From Diplosphaera chodatii (taxonomy: Eukaryota > Chlorophyta > Trebouxiophyceae > Prasiolales > Stichococcaceae): a stretch of 64,000 nucleotides of DNA. The notes beneath the pieces are model-generated. The model saw nothing but the letters and a program-made list of their open reading frames with translations. It did no database searches and was not told where the DNA came from. Positions 9,825 through 56,337 of the stretch are shown here, piece after piece; positions within the stretch are counted from its first letter, which is position 1; every line of letters begins with the position of its first letter. The position numbers were made by a program, and so were the translations under genes. The stretch spans positions 930,001 through 994,000 of the forward strand of contig JAALGY010000001.1 in assembly GCA_032358165.1 (NCBI GenBank), written 5' to 3'.

Positions 9825-10636
9825 CTATTGTTCCGGCTTGCCCCAGCCACGCTCCTCAATGAGCTCCTTCACCCTGGCGGCTGCATCGTCCCGCACTTCC
9901 CGTGCGCCCTCCACTGGCATGTGCTTTGGGTCCGCCAACGGCCAGTCCAGCTTCTCCAACCCTACACATGAACAAACTGCCGAGTGGTCAGCTGCAATGC
10001 GTGTAAAGAGGATGTGAAGTGCGCAGGTCCGCCCAGACTGATTGCCCACCGGCTCGAGCGCAGAAGTCAATAGCGAGAAAATGCGTGCATGCACAACCTG
10101 GGACGTATGGGCACGCCTCGCCGCAGCCCATCGTGATCAGGAGCGCCGCCTGCTGCGCCACCTCGGGGGTCAGCTTCTGTTGCGGTGCGTTGGCGATGTC
10201 AATGCCCAGCTCCTGCAAGTAGAAGTCGACATGCATCGAACAGTCAACAGGCTTCGATCTGAATGTAGGGTGCTGTTCATTGCGGTTTTGCAGCTACGCC
10301 TTGCAACGAGTAACAGTGAAAAGGTCAGATGATGACATCCCGCAGCCTGCAACGTCATAAACGGCCCACCTTCATGACGGTTATGCAGACGGGATGGACC
10401 CCTGTTGAGCTGGGGTTGGTGCCGGCGCTGATAGCTCTGGCTTTGGCCGGGTCGGCGTGGGCGTTGAAGAGTGCTGCTGACATCTGACTACGCCCTGCAA
10501 CATGGGGTATGCATGAGTCATAACATGCGCATGGTGATCTGTCAGCACGAGTGTGGCAGGCAATGAGCAATTCGTTTGCCTTGCCTGCATTTGCGATGCA
10601 TGCAAACAACACTGTCTCGACGCCCGAAGACGTCAT
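9825..10636 (-). CDS. arsC: Arsenate reductase, LMW-phosphatase-fold ArsC
   Basis: It reduces arsenate to arsenite, which ACR3 or ArsM can then handle. Four exons, 10585-10636, 10370-10494, 10098-10212 and 9825-9961 (stop TAG), join in frame to 142 residues, the usual family length. The phosphate-loop motif CX5RS (Cys13 to Arg19-Ser20, within CIANAGRSQM) is intact. So are SAGTNPSSTGVHP, the ELGIDI segment, the second cysteine region TMGCGEACPYVPG (Cys89, Cys93) and the WPLADPKHMPVE tail. The first intron seems to use a GC donor (GCAG|GCAAGG). An in-frame ATG at 10681 could add 15 residues. The gene is head-to-head with ACR3 across a 459 bp spacer. This is the prokaryote-type ArsC fold, not the Cdc25-like ACR2 of yeast and plants, so bacterial ancestry is likely (inference). 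Confidence 0.92.
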
Positions 10637-11095
10637 GACGCCGCTGTGTGCAACAGATTTCGATGTCGAGCTGTGTTGCACCCGCCACCCCCGGTCTTCA
10701 CTCTGAAGAGTTTTCAGCTTGGTGCAGGTTGCACAGGACCGAAAGACATACAGCTGCAGATCTTAGTCTGTACCTGTTAGAAAAGGTGCGACAGCAGCCG
10801 TATTCAGGCGCAGATGTGGGGGTGATGCAGAGGGCCATTCCGAGGTTGCGTGATGACGTAATCCGCCAACGCAACATCGAAGGGGTGACGAGGTGTGAAC
10901 TTTCCAAGAACGCCAGATGATATCAGTCTGCGCAGCGACACCGGCACGGTTGTCATACAAAAGATTTCACGCATGCTGGCGATGAACCTCGTTCACCGTC
11001 GTGCATCGCAGCAGAGTTGGATCAAGTGACGCAATAGCGTGGCCTGACCAGGCTGTACCGGGCACAATTCAGTGAAGTTCTGCGTCAGCCTCAGC
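10637..11095. promoter_or_regulatory. Bidirectional arsC/ACR3 promoter with two TGACG-type sites
   Basis: This 459 bp spacer separates the divergent start codons of arsC and ACR3. It contains TGACGTAA at 10854-10861 and TGACGCAA at 11027-11034, which are CRE/bZIP-like cores. A bZIP gene lies a few kilobases away, so these are plausible regulator sites. No binding evidence exists here beyond the motif. Confidence 0.5.
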
Positions 11096-14000
11096 ATGGA
11101 CGGGCTGCGCTACTGCGACGATGCGGCGTGCCCGAGCACACATCAGCAGCGGGAGCTGTTGATGCACTGCTCAGAGCTGCGCCTGGAGGCGGACCAGCGG
11201 GAGGCGCTGCTGTTCGAGTTCGAGGACGGCTCCCGTGTGAACGCCGCATGGGACAATGAAGGGCAGACCGCAAGCTGCTTGCTGCCTAAGGTAGAGCGTG
11301 CTGCTCATCGTCTGCGTGCGTCGCCCAATGCCTGGTGCACAGTACTAGATGCATGACGATCCTGACGTCTGCAGGACACTGGGTTCCAGATGCTCTATAG
11401 CACCCGGATGACTTCGTTAGCTTGACCCCTGATGTCTGGCTGGCAGGGAGTGCCGGAGGATGCAAAGCCGCCGAAGCTATGCGGGCAGAGTGGCCAGACA
11501 CTGTGCATGCCGGGTTCCTGCACGCTCAGACGGCGGTGAGTGCGCTTGCGTCCATCCAGCTGGGCGGTGGGTGTGTGATGGAGTCTCAGCTATGATGTGA
11601 CACTGGAGACGACCTGAAGTTGTTTGAGGTTGCGCCCAATGTGATGCATGCGTCGTGCGAGGCAGGTGCGCGCTTCAGGGTCAGTCAGACGCGCCTGCAA
11701 ATGACGGCATCGATGATTCTGAGCGGCCAAAGTCGACTGGGCCGCCTGCTAAGGCGACAGTCGGTGAGCCACCGCGATGCAAGGCCACTGTGCAGCTGTC
11801 TGGCCCTCTGGTGCAATGTTGAGACACTATCACATGCTGGAAGCCAAACACTGATGGTGCTGACATCGCATGCCGCATGTGCTGCAGGCGTGTGGCAGCA
11901 GCTCAGCTGGTCGGACCGGCTGCTCAGCGTGTGGATCATTGGGGCCATGGGACTGGGGCTTATCCTGGGCAAATTCACTGGTGCGCCGCCAGCCATGCAG
12001 GGAGGAGAACGCATGCACGCCTCATGCATGCCTGCTGGAGCACTGTGACTTGCAGCATTCGGCTGTCACTGCTGCACAAGTTTCCTCCACCGGCTGTACT
12101 GCATGCAGATATGAGCGAGAAGCTGGACACCGTGAAGGTGGACACGGTGTCACTGCCAATTGCACTGGGCCTGTGGCTGATGATGTGGCCGGTGCTTACA
12201 AAGGTGGGTACCCTCTAGGAACTGCAAATGACAAAGCTCTGCAGTATGCAGCCTGTGCAATTGACCAGTCTGTACAAATCACACAGGCCAGCATGTGTGA
12301 GGTTGCTCCTTGATGTTTTCCTCTGCAGGTGCAATACGAGGTGCTGCACAAGCTGCTGCGAGAGCGTGGCATGCTGAAGCAGGTGCGCTCCAGTCGCAAC
12401 CGGAAGCCAATCGTCTTGATTGGCATGTTGTGCACTGCCCAGGTCTTGAAGTCAAGACGCAGAAGGTATTGAAGGACGGGCTGGGCATGCCCGCAGGTGG
12501 CGCTGTCGCTCGTGCTGAACTGGATCATTGGGCCGGCGCTCATGACGGGGCTGGCCTGGGCCACGCTGCCCGACCTGGAGGGGTACCGAAATGGTGTCAT
12601 CCTGGTGCGATTCGAGGCACTCCATCACTGTGCAAAGGTTCAAAAGCGTTGTGTCAGAGCACTAAATGAGGCATAGTCTGCCTGCGGAGCGGTTGCACCC
12701 ACCCTTGGTCCAAGCATGCAGCACAGCAGCAACCACAGATAGCAATGCTGCACATAGACTTATCGGGCTCTTTGCTGCGGTGGCAGGTCGGCCTGGCGCG
12801 CTGCATCGCCATGGTGCTGCTGTGGAACCAGCTGGCCCGTGGCCATGCCGAGTACTGCGCCGTGCTGGTCGCCATCAACTCCATTATGCAGATCGTGCTG
12901 TACAGCCCCCTGGCCGTGTTCTACATCAAGGTGATCAACCATGCCGGCTGTGAGTTAGGGCAAGTATACGATCCAACCTTCATGTGTCGACCCTGAGCAA
13001 GTGAAGTGCATGCCGACTGACAGTCACTGGACGCACTCTTCCTCTTCCGCATGCAGGTGGTCTCACAGTCCGAAGGGAGCGCAAGCTTCAGGTGCGCACA
13101 TCCTGATCCCATAGTCAGGCAACCTAGCTGATAGTGTCAGACATGCTTTATTGTCACAAACACTGGCCTATCGAGCCTGTCAAGTCTGCTGTTCAAACAT
13201 CCTAGCCACCATCACAGCTCAGCAGCAAGCGCCATTGCTGCAAAGTGGATTTTGCTGATGATGTGTCCTGCAATGCGACAGCTTCTGGGACGTGGCGCGC
13301 TCGGTGCTGATCTACCTAGGCGCCCCGCTGGTGCTTGGCATCATCACCCGCTATGGTATGCCATCTGCCTTCATCCCGCAATTGATCTGTGGTCATGTGG
13401 AGCATAATATCTGCCGAGGGCATTGCAACCGTTTGTCCATGTTTCATGTGCACAAGTGCGGCATGATATTAAAATCGCTGAAGTGTCTGGGTTTGCAACG
13501 ACGACATGGCTGATTCAAGGCTGATGCTGTGCAGGCATCATGGCAATCATGGGGAAGGAGTGGCTGGAGAAGAAGTTCCTGCCCTGGTTCGGCCCTGTAG
13601 CGCTGATCGCGCTGATCTACACCGTCCTGGTGCTGTTCGGGCTGCAGGTGCGTGGAGTTGCCCATTACACATTTGTCCGCCTCACAGACAGGGTGTAGAG
13701 CTGGCGCAGTGCAGCAGAATAGCCGCTGCCATGCTGTGGACCACATCAGATGCTCGTGTCTGCATGTACTCTTGTCACAGTCACATGTTCCCAGTGGTGC
13801 TGCAGGCCAAGAACGTGCTCGACCACTTTGGCGATGTGTGCCGCGTGGCTGTGCCCATGTTCCTGTACTTCATGATCATGTGGATCGCCACACTCCTTGT
13901 CACACGGAAGTTCCACAGCACCTACGAGCAGTGCGTCACACAGGTAACATCGTACAGCTGCCTGCCTCGCATACGTGCACGCCGCAGAAGTAGTGCCAGC

Positions 14001-14566
14001 TTGTTGTGCAAGTGCAGTGACGTGTTAGGCTACAAGAGCTGAGGTGTCAACAACGTAACATGCAGAGCTTCACGGCGTCCTCCAACAACTTCGAACTGGT
14101 GCGCCTCTAATGCGCTGTTCAGAGTCTGCAGCAGATATGCACCGTGCAGCGGTGAACGTGGTGAAATTCCTAGCAAGCTACGCATGTCTGCTTGCAGGCG
14201 ATCGCCATTGCTGTCGGCACATTCGGCGTCAACTCACAGGAAGCCCTTGCAGCCACCATCGGACCACTCATCGAGGTGATTACTGTGCATTCGCCAATCA
14301 ATTTGAGCAGTTCTGCCGAAATTCTGGAGCCCCCATTCTGGTGCCTTAGGAAACTGCATGGGCTTGATGTTGAGCTCCGTGCCGGTGCCAGTCCGCCTGC
14401 CTGTGCCATGGCAACCCGGAATCCTAACCCTCTACACACCGTGCTTCAGGTGCCCGTGCTGCTAGCGCTGGTATACGTGGCCCTGTGGCTGCATCAGAAG
14501 CTTACCTGGTTCCATCCTCCACAGCAGAACTCCGAAGTTGCAATGCAAGTAAAGAACTCTGAGTGA
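11096..14566 (+). CDS. ACR3: Arsenite efflux transporter ACR3
   Basis: It exports As(III) across the plasma or vacuolar membrane (BART-superfamily carrier, ten helices). Fifteen exons give 462 residues: 11096-11234, 11447-11535, 11685-11763, 11888-11980, 12109-12203, 12329-12382, 12497-12604, 12787-12930, 13057-13091, 13282-13355, 13535-13647, 13806-13943, 14066-14098, 14198-14275 and 14450-14566. From exon 4 on, the family match is unmistakable: [52 protein letters not shown] (essential Cys, residue 225), [20 protein letters not shown] and [18 protein letters not shown] (conserved Glu, residue 397). The first two exons, before the hydrophilic linker, are less certain: they use a weak donor (CCC|GTGTGA) and match nothing I know, though frame and phase close. 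The gene is head-to-head with arsC and converges with the bZIP gene. Confidence 0.93.
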
Positions 14567-14871
14567 GCTGGTGATTTGAAGGGTGTAGTCACAGTTTTAC
14601 ATGTTACTACATGAAGTCGGGGTGAAGTAGGGAAGGGCAGATAGATCGGTATGGAGTGCGACATGAGATTCGTGTATAGTGGCTGTAATTAAAGGTTGAA
14701 AGCTTTGCACTCAATCCACATACCAGACCTTCCCAAAACTATTTTGTAGTTTGATGTTCAAGTTATAAGCGGAGGCTGCCTCTTATCAAAATGCTGATAG
14801 CCAATACCGCTGCTGTCCGACTGCTGCAGCTGTGCAATGCCTCTACGTACGCTGCCTGGTAGGTCATGACC

Positions 14872-17800
14872 TCAGGCTGCAGCCGGTTGGGCGGTCCAGG
14901 GTGCCCACTCTGCTGAGAGCACTGCCTCGATGTGCACCAACTGCCTGCCTGCTCCTACAAATTGAAACATGTCGATCCCGTGTCGTGCAGGAGTGCAATG
15001 CGCTCTCGCACGTGTGCATGCCAGTCCGTGCATAAGCCTGTTAAGACCATTTCTGCCTAGAACCGTGCATGCAGTACACCAGCCACGAGACCAGGCTGGA
15101 GTCCAAGTCAAACCCAGCTTGGTGAGTCTGCCTGTACCTTGAGCCATCAGCTGTGCCGCAGGCAGCTCGTCTGAAGCCTCCGCAAGGGCCTCAGCCAGGG
15201 CTGGCATATCCACTGCCCCAGCCTGCCGGCACAGCGAATTCCACCATGCAACACGCATCTCAATCTTGACCCACTGACTTCAAATGTTGCGCATGAACAT
15301 GAAGCAGAGCCTGCAACAAAATGCCGTGCCGTAGAGAACCCACTGCAACTCGTCACCATGCCGTTCACACCTGAAACGCTGCAACATCCAAAGCAGCTGC
15401 TTGAGCAGGCGCAAGCACCCGCCGTGTGATTGCAATGGTGAACTGCGGCAGCACCATACGGTTTCTGGCTGAACAACATTTGCACAGCGTCGATGCTGGG
15501 CGACGCCACGCTGCACTCAGGGGCAGTGCTGCAGCTGCTTTGGCAGGTTGATCCTGGTCTTATTACGATACAACGTTACAGGGACATCACGTACCCGCAG
15601 CAGACAGGCATGGGTCCTTGCGGTGAGCAAATGCCTCTGACTCTGCACCGTCACATGGTGCAGAGCATCTTGCGTGTTAACCTGAGCTGTGCTCACCTGC
15701 AGCAGGTAGGAGTGCTCCAGCCGGAGCGCCACGCACAGCGCCTTGGCAGCATTTATGGACTCCTGGAATTTCCCATTTACATCGCACTGCGTTGATGCGC
15801 ACAGCGGCAGAGCGTCCTGCGCATCATGCACGGCCAAATTTTCTGACGAGGCCCATGTGCTTCATCCGGCACCGTCTGTGAAATGCATGCAGGCAGCCGT
15901 GAGCTGCACCCTGCAACTTGCACCCTGGTATGCCACGAAGATCAATGTTACCGGGTGCACCTGCAGCATGGCTGTGAGCGAGCGCCTGCGGGCAGCCAGC
16001 ACCCCCAGATTGCCGAGATAGCTGCGGCGCAGGTCGCAAACAGCAGCGCGCTGCTGTATAGTCAGCACCGCTGCGTCGGCGGCCTGCCGACAGTTGCAGT
16101 GTGCACACGAGGTTTGGCATGGCCACACATGCAATGCTGGCTGCACAGCTCACGTGACATGGGACTTTGAGCACAACAGAGGTTTGTTGCAGGCATGCAC
16201 GGACAGCCACGAGAGGTCCATCTGCAGCGTGATGACTGCATCAAAGTTCCAAAGCTGCCGCACCTGCAGCCAGGCATCTGGAGTCAGCTCCACAGCATGA
16301 GCGGCATCTGCCTTCAGCGCCGCCAGCCGCTCTTGTCGCGATGCTAACACAAATGCTTTCAGCTGTAGGCCCTCGAACACAAGCCGCGCCTGCACACACA
16401 AAATGCTTCTAAAATATGATGCGTGTGCAGGTTGTGCTATGTTGCGGCCACAGCAGCGCAGGGTACAACCCCTGGCCAGCATGCAACGAACCACTTGGAG
16501 CAAGTTGGTGCACCCGCATCAGCACACGCATGTAGGCACACACCAGCCTGTGTCCGGCATCTGTCTGTGTGTCGCCGCGCATCTGCAGCAGCAGCGCGGC
16601 AAATGCGTGCAGGTACTGCTGCCACAGGGCTGCCAGCTCGCTGCGTGGCATAGCTGCCACCTGCTCATCGACACCACCTCACATCTCCTATCACTGAGTG
16701 CCTTTGCAACTTCATGACGTGCTAAACGTGATTTTGCATGGTGCGTGTCGTCGTCACAGGCTGAAACACCCGCCTGTGGCTGCGTGAGCTGTAGCGCTGC
16801 GCCAGGCCGCACCGTGAAGGTGAAGCCCTCTGCAAGCTGTAGCTCATCAGCTAGCAGCGCCTGCCCCACGCATGGAGTTGTCAGGAGCTATGATTGTAGT
16901 TCCTTTGCTGCAATGTGTCATGGTCTGTAGGGTAGCCAGCTGCATGTCGCACGATGATATTTATGCAAGCACACTCCGAGCATTGCCACCTGCATGGTGG
17001 CATCCTGCCATGAGGCGTCTGCACAGCCATTGCTGCACGGTTCCTCCGTTGCAGGTGTGGCATTCGCCGGGCTGGGATCCGTTGCACCGCTGGTACTTGA
17101 ACAGACCGGGCTGCACTCCTGCTGCAGCAGCTGCTGCTCTGCTACAAGCGCCTCCAGTTGTGCATTGCGCTGCTCGAGCAGCACCTGCAGAATGATGGCG
17201 CTCGAGGATCGGAGGTGTTGCCTGTGCTTCCCTGCACGTCCAACATCACCCGTGCTGCGAAGTGTCCGACACGCTGATACGGCAAGCTTGCCTGATCGGC
17301 AGACGACCGTTGCAGTTGCTGCTGGAGTTCCTTGAGCTGCTCCTCCGTCGTCTGCCGTCGCTCCTGCAAGCCACCCTCATGCACGTCCGAAGCGCGCACA
17401 GCGGGGTTGGTGGCGACCTACTGACGCAGCGAGTGCCATAAGCTGAGCATCACAGCCCTCAGACCTTCTGTTTGGCCCTATACCGCGTCTGAGACCGCCG
17501 GTTCTTAGCACGCAGCATCGACACCTGCGCAGGAAGTGACCACAGTCGAACCGTAGGCACCGCGATAGGATCACTGTCATACTCAGCTGCACGCTTACCT
17601 TCCTCCCGAGCCTGTTTTCCACCGAGGGGCCAGCATGTTCTGCTGGACCGGCATCACGGCTGCGGCTAGAAGGCGGCACATCAGCATCAGGCTGCAACCC
17701 TGGTCCGCCATGTGACAGCAGTGCCTGCATGAACAAGTACATCGCTAACATGATGCAGTGCAAAACCCCAAGTCAGACTGCAGAGATTGTGCATGCCCGC

Positions 17801-17886
17801 TTTGTCATGCAGCTGACCTCAAAAGGGCTTCTGCCCTCCAGAAGCTGTGCAGCCAGCGAGCTCAGAAAGCTGTTGTCTGACTCCAT
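14872..17886 (-). CDS. bZIP transcription factor with two CX3C pairs after the zipper
   Basis: Thirteen exons join in frame to 494 residues: 17818-17886 (ATG), 17599-17691, 17465-17524, 17250-17363, 16990-17184, 16770-16860, 16514-16653, 16201-16389, 15961-16083, 15697-15762, 15371-15553, 15138-15222 and 14872-14948 (TGA). The basic region lies in residues 55-74, with the N-X7-R signature AKNRRSQTRYR (Asn62, Arg70). A Gln/Leu-rich coiled coil follows (TEEQLKELQQQL, then LLEQRNAQLEALVAEQQLL). The next stretch carries two CX3C pairs, Cys136/Cys140 and Cys162/Cys166. The C-terminal half is helical and typical of long algal bZIP proteins. Phase allows an extra 20-residue stretch between the two coil segments; alternative splicing there would change the zipper. 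The gene sits inside the arsenic block, head-to-head with arsH. A role as cluster regulator, like yeast Arr1/Yap8, is inference. Confidence 0.85.
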
Positions 17887-18361
17887 GAACACAGCACTGA
17901 GCGGTGCGATTGTCCTGAAGTTCAAGCAGTGCTCGCAAGTCCAATTTTTGTCAGGTACAACCGCAGCACTTGAGATCCAGATCATGGGCTCGCACAAATC
18001 ACCTCACCGGCGCACCATGAAAATGATGCAGAAGCGTCACACAGGCCGTCCTGGTCATGAGATTCTGCCCTGCTCACATCAGCATAGCTATTCTGATACA
18101 CAGCCTTCCTTTGATGTTGCGCGTCGCCAGCGGATCAAGCATTTGGCTGCGAAACCAGGCTGTGCAGCAGCACTTCCAGCCCCTGATTGCTGCATTAAGA
18201 TTGCCCGCCACGAGCAGAAGCACTCGTCCAGCTACCATGTGTTCATCAATCACACCGACATCCAATGGACATCAGGTGTGGATGTTCACTGCACTGCATG
18301 ACTTCATGCAACACGCATGCTGTGCTCGCAAGTGGCCAGCAGGAGTCGCTGGCCACCAGTG
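17887..18361. promoter_or_regulatory. Divergent spacer between the bZIP gene and arsH
   Basis: About 475 bp lies between the bZIP ATG (minus) and the arsH ATG at 18362 (plus); it shortens to 430 bp if arsH starts at 18317. I find no ACGT-core or TTASTAA site here. Confidence 0.4.
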
Positions 18362-20122
18362 ATGACACTGGCTGCTGCTTCATCAGCGTGGAAGTGCTCT
18401 TGCTTTGCTTCGCAGGCCACTGCAGAGTTGTCACTGCCCAACTACCACCCATACCGTCTCCTCGATGAGGCCGCAGAGCGTGACTGGGTCCAGCACCTGG
18501 AACTGGACACAGCGCGCGCCACAGCAGATTCTAGTGCTGAGGATCCTCTCAAAGTGCTGGTACTGTACGGCTCGTTGCGACAGCGGAGCTTTTCCAAGCT
18601 TTTGGCATATGAGTTTTCAAGGTAGGCCCCAGGTTCCCTTGCTTGTGTCCACCAGAGCATGTACAAAGCTTGTGGCTACGCCTGCATCGCCTGCACAAGC
18701 GGGTCCTCAGACAAGCAGGTTGGCTATCGTGTTGCAGAGTTCTCGAGCGGCTTGGTGCGGAGGTGCGTGTTTACAATCCAGAAGGACTGCCAATGAAGGA
18801 CGAGGCCTCCACAGCGCACCCCAAAGTGGAGGAAATCAGGAGCCTCAGCATGTGGTCCGAGGCCCAGGTATGCTTGCGATGCTGTCATGCATGTGCATGT
18901 CTTCGTGTCGTCACTTTCCTCATCATCAAGTCTGATGTTTGGTGCACAGGTCTGGGTGTCGCCGGAGCAGCATGGCACCATCACAGGCGTGTTCAAAAAC
19001 CAGATCGACTGGATCCCGCTCAGTCTGGGGTCGGTACGGCCCACACAGGGCCGGGTACTGGCCATTGCGCAGGTAAGCTGTGGCAACTGTCACAGCATCT
19101 ATATGACATGACGTGACCTGCAGTGCGCACGCTGCTGATATGGGAGTGACACATCTCAGTACCGTACAGGTCAATGGGGGGTCTCAGTCTTTCAATGTCG
19201 TCAGTACATTGCGAAACCTGGTGAGTAGGATACCGAGTCGACAGATGCTTCGACGTGTCACCCTGTGTCTCGACATGACACTCCTAGGTGAAAGCGCAGG
19301 GGCGGTGGATGCGGATGTTTACCATCCCGAACCAATCGAGTGTCCCCAAAGCCTGGACAGAGTTTGACGAGAGAGGCCGCATGAAGGTCTGTCTCTCTTT
19401 CTATTACTGTTGCTGCCTGAGTATATCTAATCAGCACATTGGATGTGGATGCTTCACTGCCGGCTGCATGCATGCACCCGGTCTGTCAAATCGTGATGCA
19501 TCTACGTTGCAAGGCCAACACGACAGTACACCTGGCCACGCATGTGGAAACGCCCGCTGTATGCTGCTGCCTGCAGCCCAGCAGCCTGCGGGACAGAGTC
19601 GTCGACGTCGCTGAGGAGCTCCTCAAATTCGGGCTGCTTCTGCGGCCGCACAGCAAATACCTCGTGGACAGGTGCAAACCAGTGGTGCTATCACCCGTGA
19701 ACATGCTCAGCGTCGTTTCTGGGTACTCCAGCAGGGTCATTTAGAGGTGCAAGTGCAACGCCCAGATACTGCTAACACTGCTGCTCATCTGCCTGAGTCC
19801 AGCGCCGGTGTGCACGCGCCACCCACTGCAGCTGTGTGCGCCACAGCCCATGCAAGGTGCCTCTTCACATGCCGTAGGTACAGCGAGCGTGAGGAAAAGC
19901 GCCGCAACGGCCGGCTGCTCTCACAGGTGCTTGCCACTGCCCTGCAGTAATGGCTGGTGTTTACTGCCTCAGAAACTTGCTCTGCATAGCCCAAAGTGTG
20001 CCTGGTATGGGTGGTGATGTCAAGCTGTTAACATGTACAGCAGACACGACCAATCATTGACAACATGTGCGCAGGCGGAGAAAGAAGCAGGAAAGCCCAA
20101 GGATGTGGCTGCCAAGGGCTGA
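18362..20122 (+). CDS. arsH: ArsH, NADPH-dependent FMN reductase of arsenic operons
   Basis: ArsH oxidises trivalent methyl- and aryl-arsenicals using FMN and NADPH. Eight exons, 18362-18621, 18738-18867, 18950-19072, 19170-19220, 19288-19386, 19577-19671, 19878-19926 and 20075-20122 (TGA), give 284 residues. It shows the FMN loop [12 protein letters not shown] (from residue 70), [56 protein letters not shown], the GGSQSFN turn, [28 protein letters not shown], and the C-terminal helix [17 protein letters not shown]. These are the family blocks in the right order. An in-frame ATG at 18317 could add 15 residues; either form may carry a short targeting peptide. ArsH is common in bacteria and found in some fungi and algae. 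The gene is head-to-head with the bZIP gene and tail-to-tail with the small membrane protein. Confidence 0.94.
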
Positions 20123-20577
20123 TGATGCCTTCTGTTGAAGGGCTTACTTCGTGTGTAGCATAAGCCACACTCTGTGCATCTATGATAGAACAGAATGCTT
20201 TTGTACCGCCTGAACCTATTTGCTTGCCAAGAACCTCGATGAAGTATATTCAGGACCGATGAAGACGAACATTGTTTGGAACAAAGCAGTAATTGGCTTT
20301 TGGCGCGCTGATGAATCAACAGAAGACATTCTGCACAAACCACTGCAACTAACACAGCTGCACGAAGAAGCAATTCATGGCGTCTACATCATTATCATTG
20401 TACAGTCAGGCAGGGGACACACTCAACTTTGTCGCTCTGTCCACTGCCTGCACAGCGCGTTGCGATCACACCCGCTGCTGGATCTGCTGCTGCTGACAGC
20501 GCTGCGGCCGCCACGTTTGACTGCACACCCTACGCTGCGCTGCGTTGAGCTGCGCTGCTAAGGCAGTCACCACCGAA
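20123..20577. other. Convergent spacer after arsH
   Basis: These 455 bases between two 3' ends hold no supported exon. They are likely 3' UTRs. Confidence 0.5.
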
Positions 20578-21576
20578 TTATCTGCCCCTTCTCGGGATGG
20601 TTGCCAGGGTGACGAACCGCTCCCGGGGCGGCGGTGCCGGGGGCGCCTCCTCATCAGCCACGCTCCATGCCGGGTCATGCGGCAAATCCCTTGAGGCAGC
20701 CTGCCCAGCGGCGGGCTTGGCCTGCATGGACAGCGCGAGGGTTCAACTCCGACCCTTGACATACCGATGGATGCCATGGCGCATGCACCACAGATCCTGA
20801 GGTGAAATCGTGACGATACATGTTGAAGATGTGGGCGATGCCCAGATGTGGTTCAATCCCTACAGGGGGCCTGCAGACCTTCTCATCCTCCAGCGCCACC
20901 GACATCTCGCCATCGGGCTGCGCCACCAGCAGCGCCTTGGCGTCAGGCAACGGCTGCCCTGCGACCACCGGCCCGAGGGGCACGCCCGCCTGCGGAAGCA
21001 CCAAACAACCGAACGTGCATCAGCTTGGCGGCACCAGTGCTCCCATCTGTTTGCCAAGCGGTGGCTTCTGTGCAGCGAGCGGAGCAGCACCTGGCAGCTT
21101 GGAAGCAGGAGCGCCCTCTGGTGCAATACAGACGCCTAGAGCGCATTCATACTGGATGTATAGGTGGCAGGCACGGGCTTCTGAGCTCGCGTCTACCTGC
21201 TCATGGCCCGGAGGTGCTGCTGCCCGCGAGAACAAGTACCAGTCATTGTTGATTCTGACGGCCACCAAGCCGTTACTGCCGTTGGCACGTGCTTCTGCGT
21301 GCTCCTGCATTCCATTTGTGGTATACACATATGCACTCCATCCACGATGTACATGTTTGCAGAAGCACGCTTCATTTCCCCATCAGGCTAGCACGCCGCT
21401 GTTGCACATTTCACAGGTATGAGGATGTGTCGTTAGAAGGCGGTCATACTGAAAGTATGTTCAGATGCTGTTCGTGTTCCCACCTGCAGTTGAGCCTCCA
21501 GCAGCCGCCTGCGCCTCCGCAGGCATAGGTACACTGCTGTGAATATGACCACAAAGACGAAGATGACCTCATACAT
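20578..21576 (-). CDS. Small membrane-anchored protein of unknown function in the arsenic block
   Basis: Four exons, 21484-21576, 21035-21304, 20879-20989 and 20578-20721 (TAA), join at phase 0 to 205 residues. The protein starts with one hydrophobic helix (VIFVFVVIFTAVYLCL), followed at once by a run of arginines (positive-inside). It then has a soluble region with LVAVRINNDWYLFSR, LPDAKALLVAQPDGEMSVAL and a proline-rich tail. The start at 21576 is chosen because an in-frame stop lies just upstream. Alternatively, two upstream exons at 22251-22284 and 22038-22105 (MPPWFWVAIALG, then AVFVVAYFKHNFLERHLRNH) form an open, phase-consistent hydrophobic lead that could splice in. I recognise no family. 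It lies between arsH and arsM and diverges from arsM, so a role in arsenic handling is possible but unproven. Confidence 0.65.
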
Positions 21577-22284
21577 GCCGGCCCGTCACGCCCAGGCAGC
21601 AAGCCGGTTAGACCAGGTGTGGGCTATGGTTGATCCGTGTCCGTGCTGCTCACTGGTCGCAACTCATCCGCTGGCTGTGGTTCATCCACTAATGCGACGT
21701 GGATTGGACTGCAGGGGCAAACAGGATGGTTCACCAGGGCAGGCGTGCGAGCCAGCTACACAACAGCATCTGTGAACATCTTCTGTTCTGCGGATGCGCA
21801 TGCCGTGTAGCACCGTAAAGCTAGCAATGTGCGCACCCTGCAGGCTGCTGACAGTAGTAGCCATCTTTCACTGTTATACAGATGGTGCGGAGCGGAGGGC
21901 TGGTTGCTGGTGACTGTACCTGCATCAATCGACCCTAAGAACAAATCAAACTGTCGTTTGACAGCTACTTTCCTAGTGTATCGCTCGCACGCACATGATA
22001 CCCTGAACGCGCAGCACACCTCCGCAGAAGCCTGAACATGGTTGCGCAGGTGGCGCTCAAGGAAATTGTGTTTAAAGTATGCAACGACAAACACAGCTTG
22101 CAGCCCTGCATAGCAACCACCAGAGCAGAAGTTGGTCAGGACTGCAAAGCGTCCGACTCGTTGAACTGCGGAATGACACGCACGACTTGCCCTTCCCAGC
22201 GTGTGCTCGGACAATTTGCCACGGTGCAAATCATGCATGGAGACACTCACCCAGTGCGATCGCTACCCAGAACCACGGCGGCAT

Positions 22285-22771
22285 GAATGTGGGAGGTCCG
22301 ATCAGTACCGTGGCGACAATAGAGCATATGTTCCGTGCATGATGCTGCACAAGGGGAATAACCCCTGCCTATCCGAATGCCAGCTGGCCATATAAGAGGG
22401 TGGCAGTCGGGGGAAGCTCGCCCGCCTGCACTATTACTAATACACGGATCATTAACAGGCTTGCACGCAGCAATCTACACTGCACGCCATACATTCCCAC
22501 CTGCTCCGTCTGTTCTGCCCATAAACCAGTCCATGACCCCATATTGGACAATAACAGCATTGGTTGAATGACGGGCGCCCATCAGACTCTCTGCAGGCCA
22601 ATACAGCGCAGCCTTGCACAGAGTGCATAAGCAAGAGCAAGTGGTGCGCGAGATTTGGTTGATATCGGGCAACCCATTACAGCTTTCAGCCACCTGTACC
22701 TATCAGCTGGAGGCGGATTGGAAGGTGGCGGGTGATAGAGTAGGCGCTGCCCGTCAGCTGTTCACAGCCGC
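22285..22771. promoter_or_regulatory. arsM upstream spacer with a TTACTAA site
   Basis: The spacer upstream of arsM contains TTACTAA at 22434-22440, identical to the yeast AP-1 (YRE) core, and TATAAG at 22391-22396. If the putative upstream exons of the neighbouring minus-strand gene are real, this is a 487 bp bidirectional promoter. A short inverted repeat (AGGGG-n5-CCCCT) lies near 22354. Confidence 0.45.
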
Positions 22772-25386
22772 ATGACGTCCAGCTCTTCCCGCAGCGATGG
22801 CACGAACGGCACGGCGGAAGAGGCTGTGGCAAATGGCGCGGTCAATGGACACACGGCCAGCATGACCAGGAGCACTGAGGCACCGTCGAACGGGACCTAT
22901 GAGTCAGTTCAGGACTATTACGGGAAGGTGACATGCAATGCGTGGTTGATCGTGCATTGAGCCATGAAGTGTAGCAAGACGGCGCTGACCAACACACTTA
23001 TTCTGCTGTGCACCGTATCCAGGTCCTGAAGTCCTCTAAAAACCTCAAAACAGGTTGGCTTGTATATCTTCTTGTCAAGGCACGGCTGTTGTATCGTTTG
23101 CTGGCAGCCAGTGCAGCAGCTAACGTTTGGTGGACTCACAGGGGCATGCACAGCCGGCGGCGCGCCGCCAAAGCAGATTCGGCAGGTGCAGTTGCACACA
23201 ACACCCCGCTGTCTTCCCTTGCAACCTTCAACGGTGCAGTGCGTACGCCACGCTGGTATTCTTGTCACTTCAAATCGCATGCAGCAGTCCAGTCGCATGC
23301 AGCAGTCAGCGCGCTCGCTGCTAATGATGCAGATCCTGGCGCGGGTGCCGGATGAGGTGACGTCCAAGTTTTATGGCTGCGGGGCGCCGCTGCCACTCGG
23401 CATTGACGGCCTGCACGTGCTGGACCTGGGCAGCGGCTCTGGGCGCGATTGCTATGTGTGCGCAGCGCTTGTGGGGCCGCACGGCAGCGTGACTGGCATC
23501 GACATGACAGATGAGCAGAATCAGGTCAGTCCCGCGGCTGGCGTGCAATGCGCAATGGCCGTGGTGCTGCGCTGTTGTGTGGGTTTAAAAGTTTGAGCGT
23601 CTCGGCGGCATCCCGATCAAAACAACTGGCGGGGTAGCACCTCCACATTGTCTCGTTAATGATGCAGGTCGCGCAGCGCCACATGGAGGCATACAGCAGG
23701 CAGCTTGGGCACTGCTGCAGTAACATGCGTTTTGTGACCGGCCACATAGAGTACCTCGACAGGTACACAGCACCTGCAAGGCCAGGGCTGCAGAGTCATA
23801 GCTGAACGCTGTTGAAACTGCTGATATGCCTGGCATCGAAGGGCATCAAGGTCCCTCCAACAATATGTTGCAGGGCTGGTATCGTAGACGAATCCGTGGA
23901 TCTCGTCATCAGCAACTGCGTTGTGAACCTCAGCCCAGACAAGCAGCGCGTCATTCGTGAAGCATACCGTGTGCTGCGGCCAGGCGGCGAGATGTACTTC
24001 AGCGATGTGTATGCAGATAGACGCGTCCCGGCAGCTCTTCAGAAAGATGAGGTATGCTCCTGACAGCAGCAATGGACATGCAACCGTCTGCTGCGCATGC
24101 TGCAAGCGCCTGATTAGTTCAGGGAGGGTAGTCGTTGCTATGCTTGTGGCTGCCTCACAGCTGCGCGTATTTGCGAACCTGGTTTTGAGGTTGTGGGGGT
24201 CCATCGGGGGCTCACAGACTGACTTCGGAGGGCTGCACGGGATACGCACGGCATGTGGTTGGGGTGCAGGTGATCTGGGGCGAGTGCATTGCTGGCGCCC
24301 TGTACATCAACGACTTCCTGCGCATCGCCAAGGATGCGGGCTTTGCCGACCCGCGCATTCTGCACCAGGGGCCGGTCGCCATCCACGATGCCGAAATCCA
24401 GGTGCACCTTATGGCGGTTCCGACTGAGCGCGCTCTGGCTTGTAACACCCGCCCAATGCTGCAACCTGCGGCCTCCTGTGTCCGTTTGAGCCCCGACTCT
24501 ACACCGCCCCATCTGATCCCATCGGCACCTGGCCCCCTGCCTCCTGCAGGACGCAGTGGGAAACATCCGCTTCTACAGCATCACCTTCCGGCTGTTCAAG
24601 CTGCCTGGCCTCGTGGAGCCCGACTGCGAGGAATACGGGCAGTTTGCCGTCTACAAGGTAGATGAGAACTCCGGACCAGCAGGCACACCTACACCCATTG
24701 GCGACTGTGCGACATAAACAAGGGCAGCTTCGTTATATAAGCTGAAGCAAAGGCTGTGTCTGGAGGACCACTCTAATAGCGTCATAGCATTTGGTGGTGC
24801 CCACACGCTGCAGGGCAGCATCGAGGGGCAGCCGCATGCGTACAAGCTGGACCAGGGGCACATCTTCGAGACAGGACGCCGGACATCGGTGTGCGGCAAC
24901 ACAGCCGCCATGCTGGGCGAGAATGGCGTCAGCTGGCTTGCGAAGCACTTTGAGGTTAGATCCTCCTGCAACACACCATACCCTTGCAGCAAGGTTGAGA
25001 CTGCTGGATGTGGGTTTGCACGGCATGTTCGTCAGCAGAATGCAGCAGTGGCTCACCAAGAAGCTCACCAGCAGCTGATGTGTCACTGTGCGCTAGATAT
25101 GTTGCGAGTGCAAACCTGAAGAGACGCCTGCGACCACGACAAAGAACTGCTCGAGTTTACCCAGTGTACCCATATGTAGTCTACCTGGGAACACAACCCT
25201 GCAACATGCCCGATGCAGGGTGTTCCCCTTTTTTGGATTGGGAAATTACAGATTACAATATCCACATGGCTGCCTGTGCAGGTCGTTGGCAATCGCGCTG
25301 TGCACTTCGGCGCATACACCGCATGTGCTTCGGACTACCAGCTGCCAGAGGAGGCGCCGCCGACGGTTGCCGCCAGCTGCTGTTAG
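22772..25386 (+). CDS. arsM: ArsM, arsenite S-adenosylmethionine methyltransferase
   Basis: It methylates As(III) stepwise using SAM. Ten exons, 22772-22927, 23023-23053, 23142-23185, 23333-23524, 23668-23762, 23874-24051, 24270-24401, 24550-24657, 24814-24954 and 25282-25386 (TAG), give 393 residues. Motifs visible are the YYGKVL...CTAGG start, YGCGAPLPLGIDG, the SAM-binding VLDLGSGSGRDCYV, VTGIDMTDEQ, SNCVVNLSPDKQRVIREAYR, VLRPGGEMYFSDVYADRR, and GECIAGALYINDFLRI. The four key cysteines are present at 65, 93, 188 and 238. The 28-residue and 50-residue gaps equal those between Cys44/72 and Cys174/224 of the Cyanidioschyzon enzyme. The N-terminus is Ser/Thr-rich, and the protein ends in Ser-Cys-Cys. 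The gene is tail-to-tail with the glycosyltransferase. Confidence 0.96.
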
Positions 25387-25690
25387 GCTGCCGAAAAACT
25401 GCAGCGTGCTGGTCTGCTCCAAGTTGTTTCCAGCAGGAGAGCTGACAGACGTGTGGAGATAGTTGCAAGGCTCAATCGAGCCTCAATCACGTGGAGTTGC
25501 TCACTAGCAAGTAGCTGTAGCGGAGGTGCGACAGGTGCGGGGTTGGCAGATGGTTTGCGATTTTACATTGGGGTCAATTTGCTATTGCAGCGTGATGTCA
25601 AGTTTTACAAATTTAGCAGGGACAGATACGTATCGCACTGAAAACTCATTGATCGTTCCCAGTATGTATCTCATTGTTTGTCCAGACATG
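25387..25690. other. Convergent spacer between arsM and the glycosyltransferase
   Basis: These 304 bases between two 3' ends show no exon or repeat. Confidence 0.5.
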
Positions 25691-27492
25691 TCATCGGAAG
25701 CTGTCGGCATACAGCGTCCTGTACAGCCTGATGAGCCTTCCCCGCGAGATGCCCAGATACCAGCCCAAGCCGATAGTGAAATGTATTTTTGTGGCTTTCC
25801 AGTTGCCAAGGGCCTCCAGCCGCCGTCCGCTGGTGTGTGCTGGCGGCCACAGGATCTGCACACGTCATCACAAGCATGGCACAGCTCAACACCCACAGAT
25901 GCCACACAAAGGAAGCTAGCACACTGACCGAGTTGGAAGCGGACGAAACATAGGATAGGGAACACATCGTGCCATGTCAGCAGCACTCAGATCCCACTTG
26001 TTTGATGTGACCGCGACCTGACCACGGCAGCTGCCAACCATCCCAGTACCGCCGCTGTTGCCTGGAAGCCGATGGCCTCCTCTCATGCATGCTGCAGTGC
26101 GACCAGTATAACCTGAGGCACATGTGTATGTCATGGTGTGAATCAGATCGTCTCTTTCGATATTACAACTCATATGTGTACCTTATGCACAATTGCACGT
26201 CCTCCATGATGGGCAGCGTTTCATCATATCCGCCGGCCTGCTCGAAATCTGCCGTGCGACAAAAGAGACTCTGGTCTCCAAAGAGTGCCAGGCCACCACT
26301 GCGCCAAAGAATTGTCAGGTATTTGATGGTGTACTTCAGTCGTCAGACATGCAGCATTGCCCTGACAGATACAGAAACCAAAATCGGAGCGGATATTGCA
26401 GAGCAGACTCGCACCCGAGCCACATCAGCGGGCGTGCGACCATCACCAGATAGTAGCTTTTCAGCAGGTGGTGCACTGTCATGAAGCGCAGCAGCGAGCC
26501 GTCACGGCGCTCTATCATCGTGCGGAAGCCTGCAGGTGCTTGAGCAATAAGTTGCGTCCATTCGGCAGTCGGTCTTGAGCAGCTTCAACGACACATGCAT
26601 TTGTAACAGGCACGACGTGCAACTGACAGTGGGTCAGCAGGTCAGCAGCGGACATGGCAGATCGTCTGATTGACGACCTGCCATATCCTGACAGAGTCTT
26701 GAGCACAGCGAGGGACACTCAAACATGACCAGCTCACCCGCCAGCACTGTCATTGGGTCCGCCAGCGTTGAGCGCATGATGCGCACCAGTGCCTGCGGCG
26801 GGCGGCTGTCCGCATGCACAAAGCACAGCAGGTCGCCTGCAGTTCAACCGCCTGCTCTGTCGGCTCTTGGAAGGCCCGTCTTGTGGTACACATCATTTGC
26901 AATAACCTCATGACATGACTGTCAAGAGCATGCACATGATCAAGCGTATTGAGGTGACGCACCAGAGGCTTTTGCAGCGCCTGCATTCATCTGGATGGCT
27001 CGACCCCTCTGTGACGACACCACAGTGGCGCCGGTAGCCTGCGCCACCTGGGCCGTGCTGCATAGGGGAGGCTCCGACCTCAGAAGCCGTGCCGCTTGTA
27101 TGCACTTGTCCCACATCGCGTACGGCTGTGGCTGGTTGTCAGAGCTGACCACCCAAACACGGCAGAGCGACCTGCACCTGTCCTCACTGTTGCCATCGAC
27201 CACGATGATCTCGTGCGCAGGCGGCTGGAGGCGTTGCAGCCACTGCATGCCGGACTGCAAGCCCGTCAGGAGGTCGATACAGGTTCAGGCAAGCACCCGC
27301 CACAGCACTAATGACAGAGCAGAATAGCAAGGGCCCTGCACCTCCAGGGTCTGACTCAACGTGTTTGCTTCATTCAGTGCCTGCAGCGTGCAGATCAGCA
27401 GGTCTTCCAGGCGCGATGACATGTCCACAGATGCTGCGGTGCACCGGCAGTCTGCTCACCGGGATGATGATCGAAACAGTTTCTACTGATCG
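25691..27492 (-). CDS. Family-2 glycosyltransferase, TIGR04283 arsenosugar type (5' end incomplete)
   Basis: The exons recognised are 27460-27492 (5' limit uncertain), 27342-27380, 27178-27254, 26963-27057, 26738-26836, 26415-26529, 26182-26298 and 25691-25855 (TGA). They give ETVSIIIP, ALNEANTLSQTLE, PPAHEIIVVDGNSEDR, SSQRGRAIQMNAGAAKASG, DLLCFVHADSRPPQALVRIM, FMTVHHLLKSYYLVMVARP, FGDQSLFCRTADF, GGYDETLPIMEDVQLC, and SGRRLEALGNWKATKIHFTI with GLGWYLGISRGRL. This is the full domain order of the TIGR04283 glycosyltransferases, which NCBI names as arsenosugar-biosynthesis enzymes. The short link between LCIR (26182) and the last exon is unresolved, and I did not find the start codon. Its position beside arsM supports a role in organoarsenical glycosylation (inference). 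Confidence 0.85.
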
Positions 27493-28084
27493 CTGCCCAA
27501 TAGCTGCTTGGTCTTGGTTGCGTCTGTGACGCCAGTACCAGTACGTGACCACCTGCACCCGGTCTGAGCGCGTACTGCCACAAGTTTGTGCATGGTAGGT
27601 TGCGTGCATGCAGCGGCAATGTGGCATGCATCCACATGGTTGAATCACTCACCAATGCCGATGCTACCACTATCCAAACATACATGCAGGCTTGCAATCA
27701 CGGCAAGTATTGTGGCACGATTGCACTGCTGTGCGCTAAGAACAGCTGGTCATGGACGCATGATCAGCACCGCGACGGCATGGTGCAACAACAACAGCCC
27801 CTACAAAGTGATCGCTGTAAAGTCCTGACAATACGACGGTCAGTGACATCTACATTGCGGAATAAAGCTGCGATCTGCTGGAGACACTTCCTACAGCTGA
27901 TGTATATAACCAAGCCATGCAGCATGCAGGGTATTGTGTGCACATCAGCAGAATCTCGCACATTTCATGTTGCACATAAGCATTCAGCATCGCGGCCGAT
28001 CCATATTGTGGTGCTGAGTTCGCCTGGTGCAAGCAGCTGGTCATGTTGAACTGCAGTTGGCCAGTCCCTTCGACATGTCGGACG
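27493..28084. other. Divergent spacer upstream of the glycosyltransferase
   Basis: About 0.6 kb should hold the missing first exon of the glycosyltransferase and both promoters. I cannot support any specific site. Confidence 0.35.
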
Positions 28085-51452: not shown

Positions 51453-52718
51453 CATAGGCAGCATCACGAAAGTGTCAATAGTTGTCACAGTGGTCTGTCC
51501 TTTGTCCGTTCCCTGTATTCATGTGCCAAAGGACGAGTGCCTCCAAGACAAACACCGTGTGTGAGACTGCCGCTTCTGGCCTGCTGAAAAGCGCTCGCTG
51601 TTCTTAGACAACCTACGAGACAGCAAGGTACCCAGTACCACATGCCGGCTGCAAGGTGCCTTTATTTGCAAATGACCTAGTGTCGTCAGTTCTATTCTCG
51701 CAGTCGTCAGATGTGCGAGTGTAATAGTGCACAGAGGGCTCCTGCTGAGTGAAATCGCTGGTAGCCTCGCAAAACCACCTCTTGTTGTTGAGAGCGACGC
51801 AGTACGGCATCACTGCTCTAGCCGGACGCGAAGGGTCGCAGGCGCCGCACGGCAGGGGCGCGGACACATAGATGCAAACTTCCACTACTCTGGTAAACAA
51901 GCGATGGACCTTCTGAAGTCACCAACTTGTGGAGTCATCTCAATACAGACTTGCTGAAGGTATCGCGCGCTCGAGCGTGTCGCTGTATGTCTGACTGAAA
52001 TGCGGTCCAGTCGGACATCCGTGTGAAGTGCATGAAGTTCAGTGCGTGGGCCACCCGGCCCCTGTGTTTCTGATGTCATGCTCGGTTGTGTGGACTTGCC
52101 ACATGCCCTGCGCTCTAGTCGCAGGCGATTGGCTTTGCATGCTCCTCTCTGTGTTCCCAGGACTCGACCTATCTGGAACAACGCACGCATGGCTGTTTGA
52201 GACTTGAGACGCATGTAGATGTCATCAAACAATGGATGCTAGCAGGCTGTGCCTGGGAAATGTCGGTGTGGCACACCATCGGGTGGCTGTGCGTGCAGGG
52301 GTCGGTGCACCTCTGTGCACCTTCCAACGATCGATTTGCTGCGCTGCAGGTGCATAACAGCCTGCACATCTGCAGCATCTGGCGTGGGTATCAGCAGAGA
52401 AGTGTCCCGTCACAAAGGCAGCAGGGGTTGCACAGCCACTGGAACCGAGTCAGGCGCAGCAGGAGGCCCAGTGGAGATATTGTTAGTCAGGGCAGGCACA
52501 CAGCCCAGCATCGCCATGCCGTTGCAGTGCTGAGTTGGAGGCACCGGGTTGCTGCTCTCGGGCTTATCCGGCTCAGCAGCTGGCCAGGCGCCGCACAGCA
52601 GGCCAGCTGTGGAGCTGCGGCACCTCACTGCATTCCAGCTCTGCCAGCAGCCGCAGGCAGGTCGGCGGCGGCCGTAGGCAGCGCCCGCCAGCAGCGGCAG
52701 GGCCTCGGGAGCCGCTGC
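51453..52718. other. Region upstream of the glutaredoxin-DUF547 gene
   Basis: These 1.27 kb hold open frames on both strands, but none matches a family. Some of it may be 5' exons coding a targeting peptide for the next gene. No RNA gene or repeat is seen. Confidence 0.4.
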
Positions 52719-55700: not shown

Positions 55701-56337
55701 GCGAAGAGCTGCCCGCCCATCCGCGTGTACACGCCCGAGGAACTGGACGAAGGCCTAGATGCAGCCGCCGCCGCCTTTTGCGAGGGTGTGTCACACGTTG
55801 GACGCCTGCATGTTGCACCGGCTGTAAACATCCACCATCCAGGCTCTGCTTGCAGCTTCATTGCTGCATGAGTGTGCGCACGGACGCTTCTGTGCTGCAG
55901 GGGAGGTGAATGTGGATCACGAAGGCCGAAGTGTGGCGCTGTCCATGATCTTCAAATGGTATGCAGACGACTTTGGGCCGCCCGATGTGGTGCGCGCACA
56001 TCTCTAACATCTGGTCTTGTTTGAATGTGGCGGCCTTCCGAGCGGCACGGTTGCAGTGCCTAAGCCTTGGTGCACATCGGTGTCTCAGGGTGCTACTGAG
56101 GTGAATCACCTGATTTGCACTTTGTGACAAGTTGCTGTGCTGAGCCCAACCTGCTGCTGACTCTGGGCTTGACATGCTGTACAGATGCTCCCATGGCTGC
56201 TGCGCTTCCTGCCAGACGGCCCAGCGCACGAGCTCGAGGACCTGCTCGCACACCTGGGCCCCGAAAATGTCAAGATCTCCTACAAGCCATACGACTGGTC
56301 ACTCAACAACAGCGGGGAGCCGCAGGAGGATGGTTGA
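52719..56337 (+). CDS. Glutaredoxin-DUF547 fusion protein
   Basis: Twelve exons join in frame to 578 residues: 52719-52901, 53028-53141, 53290-53445, 53690-53778, 54090-54349, 54503-54627, 54767-54907, 55019-55134, 55317-55494, 55653-55785, 55901-55989 and 56185-56337 (TGA). The N-terminal glutaredoxin has the active site CQFC (Cys56, Cys59), IAYEEIDLGQYPKLL, RVTVPQVFLGGLLIGGAEEL. Residues about 150-265 fill the place where plant homologues carry a DEP domain, but the match is weak. The C-terminal DUF547 is clear: YLDRRELTAFFINIYNALVI, LAWFSAVRYNIGGMEFSCND, IEHGVLRGN, RVHFALVCGAKSCPPIRVY, FKWYADDFG and LGPENVKISYKPYDWSLN. Biochemical activity of DUF547 is unknown. The start at 52719 is the nearest ATG; the same frame is open far upstream, so a longer N-terminus is possible. 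Confidence 0.9.

Follow-up and report, generated by a model that had tools for sequence, protein, structure and literature searches.

Do the arsenic genes of a green alga lie side by side in its nuclear genome as one working unit, or do some of them merely adjoin the rest? We addressed this question in Diplosphaera chodatii, using a 64,000-nucleotide stretch of DNA (the window; bases 930,001-994,000 of contig C1) and searches of the genome from which it comes (85.6 Mb in 55 contigs). Gene models rebuilt in two copies of the locus reveal a seven-gene arsenic cluster at window 9,825-27,685, with 65 exons and 58 introns, in the order arsC(-), ACR3(+), bZIP(-), arsH(+), a small membrane-protein gene(-), arsM(+) and a TIGR04283-type glycosyltransferase gene(-). 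Judged from its sequence, this nuclear cluster, outside which no copies of arsC, ACR3, arsH or arsM were found, also contains the glycosyltransferase, bZIP and membrane-protein genes, and it probably acts as one detoxification module. A preliminary description of this DNA had named the same genes, all of which are present on both contigs in the order then given. Its limits of 9825..27492 hold at the start, and the end moves to 27685 with correction of the glycosyltransferase model.

The second copy of the locus lies on contig C51, where all seven genes recur in identical order and orientation in ~75% identical DNA. This copy first surfaced in single-family genome searches with ACR3, ArsH and the glycosyltransferase, and it was then used as an independent exon guide for rebuilding the gene models. 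All seven reading frames are open from start to stop in both copies. Protein identity between C1 and C51 is 91.5% for arsC, 95.6% for ACR3, 92.0% for bZIP (92.9%, stop included, for the revised model), 93.5% for arsH, 95.4% for the membrane gene, 90.8% for arsM and 87.3% for the glycosyltransferase. Among 651 codons in exons picked by eye, 95% are unchanged or synonymous between the window and C51, against a background of ~55%. Synonymous divergence (dS) between the copies is 0.31-0.59, and the ratio of nonsynonymous to synonymous divergence (dN/dS, Nei-Gojobori) is 0.081 for arsC, 0.062 for ACR3, 0.126 for bZIP (the value for an earlier 415-residue model), 0.069 for arsH, 0.057 for the membrane gene, 0.104 for arsM and 0.153 for the glycosyltransferase. 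All seven genes are therefore under purifying selection (dN/dS 0.057-0.153).

Table 1. Genes and divergent intergenic regions of the arsenic cluster (window positions; aa, amino acids; bp, base pairs).
Feature	Position	Strand	Structure and remarks
arsC	9825..10636	-	4 exons (10585-10636, 10370-10494, 10098-10212, 9825-9961), 142 aa; low-molecular-weight-phosphatase-type arsenate reductase
arsC|ACR3 divergent intergenic region	10637..11095		459 bp; 75% identity to C51
ACR3 arsenite efflux permease	11096..14566	+	15 exons, 505 aa
bZIP-type transcription factor	14872..17730	-	13 exons, 405 aa; start codon tentative
bZIP|arsH divergent intergenic region	17731..18236		506 bp; 77% identity to C51
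arsH, NADPH-dependent FMN reductase / organoarsenical oxidase	18237..20122	+	9 exons, 275 aa
Small protein, predicted single-pass membrane	20578..21576	-	4 exons, 151 aa; a single hydrophobic stretch at the N-terminus, judged by eye
Membrane gene|arsM divergent intergenic region	21577..22771		1195 bp; 66% identity to C51 over 769 aligned bases
arsM, arsenite S-adenosylmethyltransferase	22772..25386	+	10 exons, 393 aa
GT2-family glycosyltransferase, TIGR04283 type	25691..27685	-	10 exons, 308 aa; first exon 27653-27685 tentative

Genome searches, run exon by exon with the best candidates scored, place arsC, ACR3, arsH, arsM and the membrane gene each at two loci only, on C1 and C51. Further matches elsewhere consist of an arsC-like match on C3 (21 bits, 26% identity) and an ArsH-like match on C49 (14.7 bits). 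No ArsB pump was found; Cdc25-type arsenate reductases and ArsJ were not among the families sought. With the contig pair taken as one locus, the chance that four single-copy genes would meet by random placement on half the genome is, as a rough figure, ~4e-10. Nor does any gene of recognised unrelated function stand between the seven, as had been noted from the sequence earlier.

Comparison with curated families and solved structures gives the enzymes and the pump their names. ACR3 scores 383.5 bits (8.6e-115) against TIGR00832, above the curated cut-off of 282.8, over model positions 1-327 of 327 with an N-terminal extension outside the match, and its best 120 matches include Coccomyxa viridis, Coccomyxa elongata, Coccomyxa sp. 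Obi, Chromochloris and Klebsormidium at 51-60% identity. ArsH likewise exceeds its curated cut-off (TIGR02690, 342.4 bits, 6.8e-103, cut-off 292.25) and matches the arsH structure PDB 2q62 at 2.8e-84. ArsM aligns over residues 42-378 with the solved arsenite methyltransferase PDB 5evj (441 bits, 3.6e-131) and matches Pfam Methyltransf_31 at 6e-29. Three cysteines align with that structure, in GACTAGG, VISNCVV and GECIAGAL, and we take these to be the likely arsenic-binding residues. The ArsM C-terminus reads CC in the window copy and CY on C51. The arsC product matches Pfam LMWPc (E 2.4e-12), carries the CX5R phosphate loop CIANAGR in both copies together with an MGCGEACP motif, and has arsenate reductase PDB 3t38 as its best solved relative by far (92 bits, 4.2e-25). 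We describe it as an arsenate-reductase-like protein of the low-molecular-weight phosphatase fold, closest to 3t38. Two observations stand beside these assignments: the first arsC intron (window 10579-10584) opens with GC (GCAAG) in both copies, and in a metagenomic protein (P0152) ACR3 is fused with a domain of phosphatase type (PF01451), which naturally connects the products of these two neighbours.

The glycosyltransferase has a hydrophobic stretch at its N-terminus, read by eye, and an insertion relative to its cyanobacterial relatives. In a tree of its best 120 relatives and both copies (122 rows), it groups within a 25-row clade (support 96/72), every named member of which is a green-lineage alga; Myrmecia bisecta is nearest, and Klebsormidium sits close to the base, its long branch flagged by the tree program. 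The sister of this algal clade comprises 56 rows (support 99/95), and its named members are all cyanobacteria.

The bZIP gene is recognised by its basic region, RAKNRRSQTRYRAK, which is the sole match to the PROSITE bZIP pattern when the window is translated in six frames (127,996 residues). Paralogs on other contigs have its C-terminal half, and NRxAQRxYRxRQ-like basic regions, such as REKNRIAQRKYRAKQR and KEKNRAAQRRYRERQK, are found in 5 of the 8 stretches read. This bZIP-like family with a common C-terminal half extends over contigs C7, C9, C18, C31, C44, C46 and C49; the basic regions lie on C7, C9, C18, C31 and C44 (L137-L140, L142), and three stretches (L054, L055, L141) show the C-terminal half only. 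On comparison with the paralogs, the first bZIP model was shortened by ten residues that are probably intron. Cysteines at positions 116, 256, 287, 292 and 309 are kept in both copies, and two introns of this gene are modelled with GC donors. The product of the small membrane gene has no match in Pfam.

From the known chemistry of these families, we infer a route along which the seven products could act together. ArsC is the enzyme that would turn arsenate into arsenite, ACR3 the pump that would carry arsenite out, and ArsM would methylate the arsenite retained inside the cell. ArsH would oxidise the toxic methylarsenicals, which are trivalent, to the pentavalent state. The glycosyltransferase, with an ArsS encoded on another contig, might make arsenosugars from the methylated branch, which is the weakest enzymatic step of the scheme. 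The bZIP protein may switch the set on, by analogy with Arr1/Yap8 of the ARR cluster in yeast. All but the glycosyltransferase gene stand in three divergent pairs, and thus three shared control regions could serve those six genes.

Several results weigh against a single module. Colinearity with C51 covers the whole window rather than singling out the cluster: window 131-63,975 aligns to C51 1,072,796-1,011,316 in 26 blocks of a single order, all in opposite orientation, and eight aligned pieces are 73-83% identical. The gene order, which had been proposed earlier as a check, is the same on C51; since all 62 kb are colinear, that agreement does not set the cluster apart. The control regions likewise offer little. 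We counted k-mers kept on both contigs in four regions, the three divergent ones and the region upstream of the glycosyltransferase, against random noncoding pieces of the window (100 draws per k, a null that is slightly too low since the largest region was drawn at 700 rather than 1195 bases). In at least three regions there are 6 6-mers (null mean 4.6) and 2 7-mers (null mean 1.2), both within the null, and 0 8-mers (null mean 0.9). The two recurring 7-mers are AGCTGTG, in all three divergent regions, and CAGCAGC; CACAGC is the single 6-mer kept in all four (null mean 0.13, maximum 2 per draw). There is no clear shared promoter motif, with CACAGC/AGCTGTG as a lead only, and control by the bZIP protein is therefore a proposal by position and yeast analogy only.

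Some family scores weigh on the same side. ArsC reaches 53.8-58.2 bits against cut-offs of 157.6-215 (TIGR02691, TIGR02689, NF010053), far below them; ArsM, scanned as an early partial gene model, reaches 178.3 bits against a cut-off of 263 for NF008823; and the glycosyltransferase, at 179.4 bits (7.2e-53), falls narrowly below the TIGR04283 cut-off of 182. The bZIP protein has no significant match in the family libraries or the PDB (Pfam bZIP_2 E 0.49, below cut-off). No bZIP relative emerged among the 7996 candidates scored in a search of 5.8 billion proteins, a search that low-complexity words probably swamped and that does not show absence. Of the seven names, bZIP is thus the least secure, a likely assignment from its basic region and paralogs.

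The published green-algal arsenic neighbourhood is a precedent for the module and bears directly on how much of the cluster works together. An ACR3-ArsH-ArsC neighbourhood has been reported in Coccomyxa subellipsoidea, Chromochloris zofingiensis and Klebsormidium nitens, with two genes clustered in the last, and the text of this survey states that ArsM homologs lie outside the neighbourhoods (Foflonker and Blaby-Haas 2020, PMC7826186). As in those algae, which include the trebouxiophyte C. subellipsoidea, ACR3, ArsH and ArsC adjoin within a few genes in the nuclear genome here, with ArsC placed by its fold and closest solved relative. Unlike the three genes described in that text, the present locus adds arsM, bZIP, the membrane gene and the glycosyltransferase. 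One could hold that the functional unit is the ACR3-ArsH-ArsC core only, and that the four added genes adjoin by chance rearrangement and have independent roles. The three-gene core is indeed the part conserved between algal classes, and arsM was placed outside it in the text of that survey (PMC7826186). The absence of a clear shared motif and the larger paralog family of the bZIP gene point the same way, as does the setting of prokaryotic glycosyltransferase relatives, where, among the best 80 of 352 loci (76 of them cyanobacterial by record title), arsC, ACR3 or arsH occurs nearby in 0 and ArsS in just 2. In contrast, on each of the two contigs the sole arsM found is the one in the cluster, the bZIP gene sits inside the core between ACR3 and arsH, and no recognised unrelated gene interrupts the set. 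We consider the core-only explanation unlikely, though it is the alternative that survives best.

The glycosyltransferase invites a second alternative, in which the locus serves mainly arsenosugar biosynthesis: ArsM and the TIGR04283 glycosyltransferase would make an arsenosugar, and the other genes would protect the cell meanwhile. NCBIfam names TIGR04283 an arsenosugar biosynthesis glycosyltransferase, the genome encodes ArsS, and the 2 of the best 80 prokaryotic loci with ArsS nearby (~0.4 and ~4.5 kb away, the closer one in Lyngbya sp. HA4199-MV5) exceed the ~0.2 expected by chance with one ArsS per 6-Mb genome (Poisson 0.016). However, the other 78 loci lack ArsS in the flanks examined, a partial ArsM gene model reaches 99.6 bits where the cut-off of NF038099, the arsenosugar ArsM family, is 400, and the remaining arsenosugar genes all lie on other contigs: C38 and C24 carry ArsS (TIGR04167) exons, C35 and C52 another TIGR04283 gene, and C19 and C25 TIGR04282. 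ArsM-like matches in 9 of the 80 prokaryotic loci (23-33% identity, at most 52 bits) were taken as other methyltransferases. The arsenosugar parts are present in the genome, yet outside this cluster, and prokaryotic gene context is weak as proof. The earlier label of an arsenosugar-type glycosyltransferase accordingly stands for its TIGR04283 type, near the cut-off, and not for its surroundings. An arsenosugar role of this enzyme is possible; a locus devoted mainly to it is improbable. The ArsS-like radical SAM genes are themselves intron-split genes of the nuclear genome (C38:828371-830509, L040; C24:1795111-1797243, L041).

That the locus is an assembly artefact or bacterial contamination has next to no probability, with nothing found in its favour: the 58 introns and the other kinds of genes on both sides bear out the earlier view of an intron-rich nuclear cluster, and an assembly join and contamination alike are set aside because C51 carries the same locus at ~25% DNA divergence.

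The single detoxification module that we favour can also be placed beside more distant systems. In yeast, the bZIP protein Arr1/Yap8 switches on the ARR cluster, Arr2 is a Cdc25-type reductase, and bZIP, arsenate reductase and ACR3 genes stand together as they do here. Unlike the cluster with Arr2, the algal locus has a phosphatase-type ArsC, and we know of no arsH, arsM or glycosyltransferase in the yeast cluster. The two are likely convergent. The three-member yeast cluster, which includes ARR3 (PMC6421352), had been offered as the classic eukaryotic case, a statement that is not supported in that form, as the green-algal ACR3-ArsH-ArsC neighbourhood (PMC7826186) and an Aspergillus fumigatus cluster (PMC12153272) are published. 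The latter is likewise a eukaryotic arsenic resistance (ARS) cluster; it is fungal and carried on giant transposons, the Hephaestus Starship elements, unlike the algal locus. A further report on A. fumigatus names ArsH and a duplicated arsM and argues for transfer of an ars operon (PMC5552862). The pump-ArsH-ArsC set also recalls bacterial ars operons such as Synechocystis arsBHC (PMC4010505), unlike which the genes here occupy both strands, in divergent pairs, with 58 introns. We found no description of a seven-gene arrangement of this kind among the top-ranked papers of the open-access literature searched. What is new here is the joining of arsM, bZIP, the membrane gene and a glycosyltransferase of cyanobacterial lineage to the published ACR3-ArsH-ArsC core. 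A more ambitious proposal, which we advance tentatively and with more doubt than belief, is that of a self-regulated super-cluster, in which an ancient algal ACR3-ArsH-ArsC core would have been joined by the sole arsM, a membrane-anchored glycosyltransferase derived from a cyanobacterium, a small membrane protein that is itself new, and a bZIP dedicated to sensing arsenite. One locus would then sense, reduce, export, methylate and glycosylate arsenic, and it would have arisen independently of its yeast and fungal counterparts.

Inspection of the ACR3 model reveals an additional feature. The N-terminal extension, ~145 cysteine-bearing residues from the first three exons (window 11096-11817), lies ahead of the permease, and the splice donor after exon 3 differs between the copies, and the true site may be a few bases earlier. 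A similar N-terminus is present in most of 22 other aligned ACR3s, where a single E and a single C position are conserved in 90% or more; these sequences were chosen mostly for high coverage, some are truncated, and the 10 that are named are all green algae. Its presence in most of the aligned proteins makes the extension a feature of algal ACR3 rather than of this cluster. A Pfam search with the extension gave no match, and the predicted structure of one ACR3 relative (P0121) has seven beta strands at residues 20-96, with a predicted local distance difference test score (pLDDT) of ~60-87 per ten residues. The extension is thus predicted to be a cysteine-bearing, all-beta domain of green-algal ACR3 outside Pfam.

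The surroundings of the cluster are of other kinds. The neighbours on the arsC side are an exportin-1 C-terminus, a membrane protein with no assigned family and, ending ~0.36 kb before arsC, an RWP-RK protein; those on the glycosyltransferase side are a 71-residue protein, again with no assigned family, and a Rad51 relative. Five flank proteins, including a 137-residue piece, were scanned with Pfam: three received names (exportin-1 C-terminus, RWP-RK, Rad51), one matched below the cut-off and one gave no match, with the remaining flank genes named by eye. No further arsenic genes were recognised on reading the flank gene models. About 25 kb from the cluster, the gene at window 52260-56337 has glutaredoxin-like and DUF547-like domains by eye. 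An Rfam scan of the window at gathering thresholds gave no structured RNA match. Guanine-plus-cytosine content is 58.3% in the window and 59.1% in its C51 match, and two colinear copies at ~25% DNA divergence occur at each place compared (window/C51, C38/C24, C35/C52). Such pairing may stem from a hybrid, from an old duplication or from an assembly that combines two species.

Should the seven genes act as a unit, D. chodatii would be a photosynthetic eukaryote that has collected the efflux and methylation arms of arsenic detoxification at one place, along with a regulator for them, much as yeast has its ARR cluster. The locus makes it testable whether toxic intermediates, namely arsenite and trivalent methylarsenicals, select for gene clustering in eukaryotes. 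It also names a candidate arsenic-sensing bZIP in algae, and it gives two little-known proteins, the small membrane protein and the cyanobacterial-type glycosyltransferase, a specific hypothesis.

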